The translations under genes were made by a program, and so were the position numbers. DNA of 64,000 bases from the NCBI RefSeq assembly GCF_003609835.1, contig NZ_AP017898.1, positions 1,054,001 to 1,118,000 on the forward strand. The letters run 5' to 3'. Positions 16,903 to 17,799 of this stretch are shown piece by piece (the first letter of the stretch is position 1; each line of letters starts with the position of its first letter). The stretch comes from Sphingopyxis sp. FD7. Its GTDB lineage: Bacteria > Pseudomonadota > Alphaproteobacteria > Sphingomonadales > Sphingomonadaceae. The notes under the pieces were generated by a model. That model was not told where the DNA came from. It worked only from the letters and a program-made list of their open reading frames with translations, and did no database searches.

Positions 16903-17799
16903 GTGGCGACGATACAGGAACCGCAACGGGTCTCGGCGGCGGATTTCATCCGCGGCTTTGCCAATTGGCGATTGCAGGCGGCGCGCAAGCCCGTTGTGGT
17001 CACGCATCACGGCAAGGACGCGCATGTGCTGATCTCGCTCGACGATTATCGCCGACTGGACGGTGGCGACGCGCGCGACATCGCCGCGCGGGGCGACGCG
17101 TTGCAGGCCTCGCACGCGGCACTGGTCGAATCGATCCGCGACGCGGTGATTCTGATCAACCCGGCCTGGCAAATTGTGGCGATCAATCCGGCGGGGTGCG
17201 ACCTGCTCGAACGGTCGGCCGCCGCGTTGCTCGGTGAAGCGCTGGCGGCGACGCTGCCGGGGCTTGAAACAGGCCTGCTCGCCCATCGTCTCACGCGCCT
17301 GATCGATCATCGCGAGCGGTTTTCGGGCGAGATTCCGGGCGTAGTGCGTCCGGGCCAGTGGCTGCGCATCGATCTGCTTCCCGTTCCCGCGGGCGGCGCG
17401 ATCATCCTGCGCGACGTCAGCGCGGCGATGGAGGACCATGCCGCCGCCGACGCGCGGCGTGCTTTGTTGCAGGCGATCGAGGCCGACGGGGCGATCGGTC
17501 ACGCGCGCATTTCGGTGCGCGAAACGGTCGAGAGCGCCAATGCGGCGCTGATCGCGATGATCGGCGTTGATGCCGCGGCGATCCGGCGGGTGCGCTTTTC
17601 GGCGCTGTTGCCCATCGGGCATCGCCAGCGCTTTGTCGAAGCGCTGGAATCGGTGTTTCGCACGGGCAACCCCGAACGCATCGCCACCGAGCTGGTGACG
17701 CGCGAGGGCGCGGTGCTGCCCGTCACGCTGTCGATCGCCGAAATCCGCGGCGCCTATGTCAGCGAAGGCGCGATGATCGTCGTCACCGCCGCGCGCTGA
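16903..17799 (+). CDS. PAS-domain protein with N-terminal Phd/YefM-like domain
   Basis: A 298-aa protein. Residues 9-52 (VSAADFIRGFANWRLQAARK, then PVVVTHHGKDAHVLISLDDY) look like the Phd/YefM antitoxin fold that binds DNA. Residues about 65-178 (ALVESIRDAVILINPAWQIV ... GGAIILRDVS) and 188-295 (GAIGHARISVRETVESANAA ... SEGAMIVVTAA) look like two PAS domains. GTG start with GGAGG 6-7 bases upstream. No kinase, cyclase or toxin follows. It could be a sensing DNA-binding regulator with ligand pockets in the PAS part. The domain reading is from pattern only. Confidence 0.75.
   Translation: MATIQEPQRVSAADFIRGFANWRLQAARKPVVVTHHGKDAHVLISLDDYRRLDGGDARDIAARGDALQASHAALVESIRDAVILINPAWQIVAINPAGCDLLERSAAALLGEALAATLPGLETGLLAHRLTRLIDHRERFSGEIPGVVRPGQWLRIDLLPVPAGGAIILRDVSAAMEDHAAADARRALLQAIEADGAIGHARISVRETVESANAALIAMIGVDAAAIRRVRFSALLPIGHRQRFVEALESVFRTGNPERIATELVTREGAVLPVTLSIAEIRGAYVSEGAMIVVTAAR

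Follow-up and report, generated by a model that had tools for sequence, protein, structure and literature searches.

The 64-kb stretch of Sphingopyxis sp. FD7 DNA analyzed here (the window) contains a tadE-tadG pair followed, 118 bp past tadG, by a regulator gene whose product carries a Phd/YefM-type N-terminal domain and two PAS domains (Table 1). The regulator ORF has a GTG start with GGAGG upstream and an in-frame coding signal, and its Sphingopyxis orthologues show 92 to 65% identity; it is a genuine gene, and its domain composition was confirmed. An antisense ORF at 16888-17808 was rejected as a shadow of the coding strand. Further along the window, at 20553-24668, genes encoding a sigma factor-like protein, a FecR-like protein and a TonB receptor with an STN-like start lie in a row, a set that by eye resembles iron-uptake signalling.

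Table 1. Coordinates, in window numbering, of the regulator gene, its domains, the linked tad genes and the predicted operators.
Feature	Coordinates	Strand	Basis
Phd-PAS-PAS regulator gene, 298 aa	16903..17799	+	Domain searches; alignment of 11 Sphingopyxis orthologues and 21 diverse homologues
Phd/YefM-type N-terminal domain, residues 9-53	16927..17061	+	PF02604, TIGR01552, alignment, hhalign to YefM
PAS domain 1, residues ~72-175	17116..17427	+	PF08448
PAS domain 2, C-terminal, residues ~203-285	17509..17757	+	TIGR00229, PF13426
tadE, 147 aa, first gene of the operon	14710..15153	+	PF07811, 56.9 bits; conserved linkage
tadG, 544 aa, overlapping tadE	15150..16784	+	PF13400, PF09977; conserved linkage
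Predicted proximal operator, paired palindrome TTATGTAA-A-TTGCGCAA, 9 bp centre to centre	14633..14655	.	
Predicted distal operator, paired palindrome GTGCGTAA-T-TTGCGCAG	14536..14558	.	~97 bp upstream of the proximal operator

Searched alone, residues 1-60 matched PhdYeFM_antitox as the sole Pfam family (29.6 bits, E 5.8e-7), a score at the curated cut-off of 29.8 bits; a tighter cut of 50 residues reached 30.1 bits, and residues 1-60 exceeded the cut-off of the NCBIfam model phd_fam (23.9 against 20.8). PhdYeFM was also the sole family matched by 32 of 36 homologous N-terminal domains, with identities down to about 30%. According to the alignments this domain is the most conserved part of the regulator: R17, F19, H36 and G37 are invariant in 36 homologues, and T34 and W22 nearly so. 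Profile comparison with hhalign aligned it with E. coli YefM at 81% probability, pairing PVVVTHHG...VLISLDDY of the regulator with PILITRQN...VLMSLEEY of YefM. A PDB profile search with the Phd part gave repeat artefacts (designed Pizza proteins) as best matches, the sensible matches being weak (RelB 0.034, YefM 0.28). The AlphaFold model, built from 12 close sequences only, has low confidence in this part (pLDDT about 40), where it poorly models a helix-strand-strand-helix order followed by a helix into the first PAS domain; because of this low confidence, the fold assignment of the Phd part rests on sequence. No match to a helix-turn-helix was found in the regulator.

A helix predicted from the model at residues 57-77 links the Phd part to the first PAS domain, in which residues 75-174 match PAS_4 with 52.6 bits; the second PAS domain matches the S-box model. 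Foldseek searches with the AlphaFold model retrieved PAS-PAS proteins, PpsR first, with LOV-PAS proteins also near. In Pfam and NCBIfam searches of the whole protein no output domain was found after the second PAS domain, and matches at or above cut-off were to Phd and PAS only, with no kinase and no receiver. The toxin-binding C-terminal region of antitoxins is absent, since what follows residue 53 is the predicted helix and the two PAS domains. A sensor and a domain of DNA-binding type thus lie on a single chain, as required of a one-component regulator. The initial annotation, made from sequence alone, had described a Phd/YefM-like start followed by two PAS-like domains without output domain, and both descriptions held. 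Its reading of the protein as a one-component regulator in which a PAS sensor drives an antitoxin fold is supported, with DNA binding and PAS control remaining inferences. The structure prediction that it had also called for was poor in the Phd part and placed the PAS part near PpsR.

Of 60 Sphingopyxis genomes, 43 proved in whole-genome searches to encode the full-length architecture of about 300 residues, as did about 45 of 390 genomes sampled from other Sphingomonadaceae genera, at 22-34% identity. No full-length homologue was found outside the Sphingomonadaceae among overlapping draws of 385 genomes from the class, 379 from the phylum and 201 from the order; matches outside the family were PAS-only and lay within longer ORFs. 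Stand-alone Phd antitoxins of ~100 aa also came up in the family search, but match residues 9-62 only. No family member was found on plasmids, and the tree of 65 members has deep branches. The architecture, which had been called unusual, is therefore recurrent across genera and not a one-off, and no paper on a Phd/YefM-PAS protein was found in a search of mostly open-access literature. Two variants of the family were also observed. A divergent subgroup (L119, L122, L124 and L125) lies directly behind rpoD, the gene of the principal sigma factor, without an adhesin neighbour and with an N-terminal signature like HRGRPRLxLxS. One genome (G157) has three paralogues (L104, L108 and L113) in which the Phd helix is shortened; M13 peptidase genes adjoin two of these, and the region upstream of L104 holds TTGTACATGTAA, which includes a YefM-like TGTACA.

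Genes around the family members were called and clustered in 65 distinct loci. In 38 of them tadE and/or tadG lie within three genes of the regulator, and in 10 a YadA-type trimeric autotransporter adhesin does, mostly divergent; the neighbour in L111 is an RTX-repeat protein, and about a quarter of the loci have neither Tad nor YadA nearby. The regulator gene is not free-standing: it belongs to the tadE-tadG operon in this genome and to adhesin loci family-wide. The tadE-tadG pair precedes the regulator in Sphingopyxis, follows it in the same direction in L089, L102 and L109, is divergent from it in L088, L093, L099, L101, L106, L112, L114, L115, L118 and L120, and is convergent in L104. As the linkage is kept through four arrangements, we argue for a functional link. 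Co-occurrence shows the same association: 43 of 60 Sphingopyxis genomes have both the full-length regulator and TadG, and the remaining 17 have neither. Outside Sphingopyxis the regulator is present in 22 of 25 genomes with a close TadG, compared with ~23 of 365 without one, and in five of those 22 the regulator and tadG are unlinked. In two Sphingopyxis loci, L139 (G789) and L138 (G806), tadE and tadG have been lost along with the N-terminal Phd-PAS1 half of the regulator; what remains is a remnant ORF of 186-188 aa, in front of which motif-like sites persist. Two others, L134 and L137, show at least five tandem copies of a gene family of 200-236 aa (cluster C9) around tadG and the regulator.

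The claim that no toxin gene is adjacent held at this locus and family-wide, no toxin gene being found near homologues in about 65 loci and 27 small genes from the neighbourhoods of family members matching no toxin family. Sphingopyxis sp. FD7 has further Phd/YefM antitoxins, one with a YoeB toxin; this yefM-yoeB pair (L154:5194-5708, on the smaller contig, C2, of G000) was detected by the same search, which therefore would have seen a toxin neighbour. Neither outcome named beforehand as a refutation, a failure of residues 1-60 to match PhdYeFM or homologues lying beside toxins, occurred.

YadA-linked and Tad-linked promoters have a palindrome in common, wTTnCGnAAw, often in two copies 9 bp apart. 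A first expectation-maximisation search, covering the 350 bp in front of the regulator gene of 36 non-Sphingopyxis loci, returned AwwTTrCGyAAwwT. The 12 YadA-linked loci alone, which include three members of the same clade with the adhesin further off or not called, gave AAATTnCGnAATTT (LLR 44.5 vs. 22.6-30.5 in 12 shuffled sets), and 11 Tad-divergent loci alone gave AwTTTrCGyAAAwT (LLR 45.1 vs. 24.5-30.6 in shuffled sets). With the YadA-trained motif, for which no Tad locus was used in training, 27 of 38 Tad loci have the best site of the ~13-kb locus within the 320-bp tadE promoter. Because the counts within Sphingopyxis are inflated by relatedness, the tests outside the genus carry the argument; there, the tadE promoter holds the best site in 11 of 15 Tad loci, against a mean of 2.6 and a maximum of 10 of 15 for 300 permuted motifs of equal composition. 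The 9-bp spacing of palindromes occurs in 16 of 57 promoters (0.6 expected), and every other spacing in four or fewer. Furthermore, the site tracks tadE and not the regulator start, relative to which it lies at about -2250 in Sphingopyxis, at +890 to +1085 in L089, L102 and L109, and at +3519 in L104. Among unlinked tadG promoters in genomes with the regulator, those of G346, G314 and G180 have moderate sites and those of G219 and G283 have none. No good site was found at tadE in the TadG genomes G239, G360 and G380, which lack the regulator, although three cases are few.

Motifs trained without Sphingopyxis were used to scan the window. The top site of the 64 kb, at 14642-14655 (21.0 bits), lies in the predicted proximal operator, and the sites at 14545 and 14536, in the predicted distal one, rank third and fourth. 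The pattern TTNYGNAAWTTNCGNAA occurs without mismatch just once in the 3.94-Mb genome, at 14636-14652 of the window, in the tadE promoter; the distal operator is a paired site with two mismatches. The initial annotation had proposed binding at the regulator's own promoter, 16785-16902. This part failed: no site was found there, the best motif match ranking 48th in the window, which fits a regulator gene co-transcribed from tadE, and the predicted operator is instead 14536-14655, for which there are no binding data. No comparable motif cluster is present at the other TadG/TadE locus (L153) or at the Flp pilin locus (L232) of the genome. Two look-alike sites, between a metallo-hydrolase and a peroxiredoxin gene (L237) and inside a GTPase-like gene (L233), were judged unrelated. 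The second-best look-alike in the window, at 4111-4134, precedes a bacterioferritin-like gene on the minus strand (3551-4033) by ~80-100 bp.

Since no sigma-70-like promoter could be recognised ahead of tadE, the position of the site does not tell a repressor from an activator. Downstream of the operator, within 14642-14710, an inverted repeat conserved in Sphingopyxis, AAAAGCGGCGTCG...CGACGCCGCTTT, precedes tadE. It could be a terminator of the upstream GST gene or an attenuator, and the hairpin resembles a bidirectional terminator. Possibly such a hairpin shares part of the right half-site, which would explain some of the conservation within Sphingopyxis; it does not account for the left half-site or for other genera.

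We consider it likely (probability about 0.75) that the protein is a PAS-controlled one-component regulator with a repurposed antitoxin fold, which controls adhesin or pilus genes as well as itself; that it binds DNA, the signal and the sign of regulation are inferred and untested. In the proposed mechanism the C-terminal PAS domains would sense a small molecule or the redox state, the ligand itself being an inference, and, by analogy with PpsR-like one-component regulators, the joining helix would carry the signal to an N-terminal dimer of Phd/YefM type. The dimer would bind paired wTTnCGnAAw palindromes, in many cases accompanied by another pair some 95-150 bp away. Its target would be the tadE-tadG promoter, tadE and tadG being pilus minor-pilin-like genes, or, in other genera, the promoter of a divergent gene for a YadA-type adhesin. 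The toxin-binding C-terminus of an antitoxin would have been swapped for a sensor. Self-control, as in antitoxins, is suggested because the regulator gene is either a member of the target operon or transcribed from a divergent intergenic region that it has in common with its target. Repression is only a possible sign of regulation, guessed by analogy with antitoxins. The architecture, the spread of the family, the linkage and the shared motif are shown; binding of the motif by the regulator and PAS gating of that binding are inferred; the motif is correlative and could belong to another adhesin regulator, and no experiment has been done. We lean, by a narrow margin, towards a bolder reading: an undescribed family in which an antitoxin fold, captured from toxin-antitoxin systems and fused to PAS domains, reads a new operator sequence and was reused across the Sphingomonadaceae as a dedicated switch for exchangeable adhesion modules, TadE/TadG pili or YadA-type adhesins.

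Sphingopyxis is a water and soil bacterium, and sphingomonads are often met in biofilms, in water systems and in the degradation of pollutants; the analysis names a likely attachment switch for them. If the reading is correct, the Phd/YefM fold supplies the DNA-reading part of a regulator driven by a sensor, and one regulator family keeps its operator while the target changes from pilus genes to adhesins. The predicted operator and targets are named, so that the proposal is directly testable.

The alternative that survives best, although unlikely, is that the palindrome is bound by a different transcription factor, encoded elsewhere and controlling adhesin and pilus genes, and that the regulator acts by protein-protein contact, for example with RNA polymerase or with this factor, without binding DNA. 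The linkage of the motif is merely correlative, and some genomes with the regulator have unlinked tadG promoters without good sites. Against it, the same palindrome was obtained from YadA- and Tad-linked promoters, which have nothing obvious in common but the regulator, and the most conserved part of the regulator belongs to a DNA-binding family. It is very unlikely that the protein is an active or orphan antitoxin of a type II system with its toxin elsewhere and PAS domains as decoration: the PhdYeFM match and the other antitoxins of the genome, one with YoeB, would fit, but none of the ~65 homologues has a toxin near, the toxin-binding region is missing and the conserved partners are adhesin genes. 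Also very unlikely is a plain PAS-PAS adaptor without DNA binding whose Phd match is chance or a degraded remnant, as the score just at the Pfam cut-off and the low AlphaFold confidence might suggest, since PhdYeFM alone was matched by nearly all homologous domains and a remnant would not keep the four invariant residues.

The one-component regulator proposed here can be compared with three known systems. Genes at Flp/Tad pilus loci share TadE and Tad/Tad_C domains with the linked genes; in contrast to those loci, the tadE-tadG pair is separate, lies away from the Flp pilin genes, which are present elsewhere in the FD7 genome, and has a proposed regulator of its own. PpsR/CrtJ, a repressor of photosystem genes, likewise combines tandem PAS domains with one DNA-binding domain per chain, and the PAS part finds its best match, in structure as in sequence, in PpsR. 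However, PpsR/CrtJ ends in a helix-turn-helix (the PDB entry carries the description 'without the HTH motif'), whereas the domain of the regulator is N-terminal and of Phd/YefM type; its targets differ from those predicted here, and the PpsR equivalog model scores 16 bits, far below its cut-off of 275. Phd/YefM domains are known as self-repressors of toxin-antitoxin operons. With the antitoxins YefM, Axe and P1 Phd the regulator shares the N-terminal signature PVxVTxxGxxxxVLxS...Y, the inferred control of its own operon and close paired palindromes as predicted operator; unlike them, it has no toxin, and two PAS domains replace the C-terminal toxin-binding tail. YefM and Axe operators consist of two close palindromes with TGTACA cores 12 bp apart, and R10 and R31 of YefM are essential for DNA binding (PMC7730913, PMC4803016), whereas the palindrome of the regulator family has a TTnCGnAA core and 9-bp spacing. 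The position of YefM R31 is His or Asn in the regulator family, which has the invariant R17 in the first helix; by inference, this is consistent with a different core read by the same kind of dimer.
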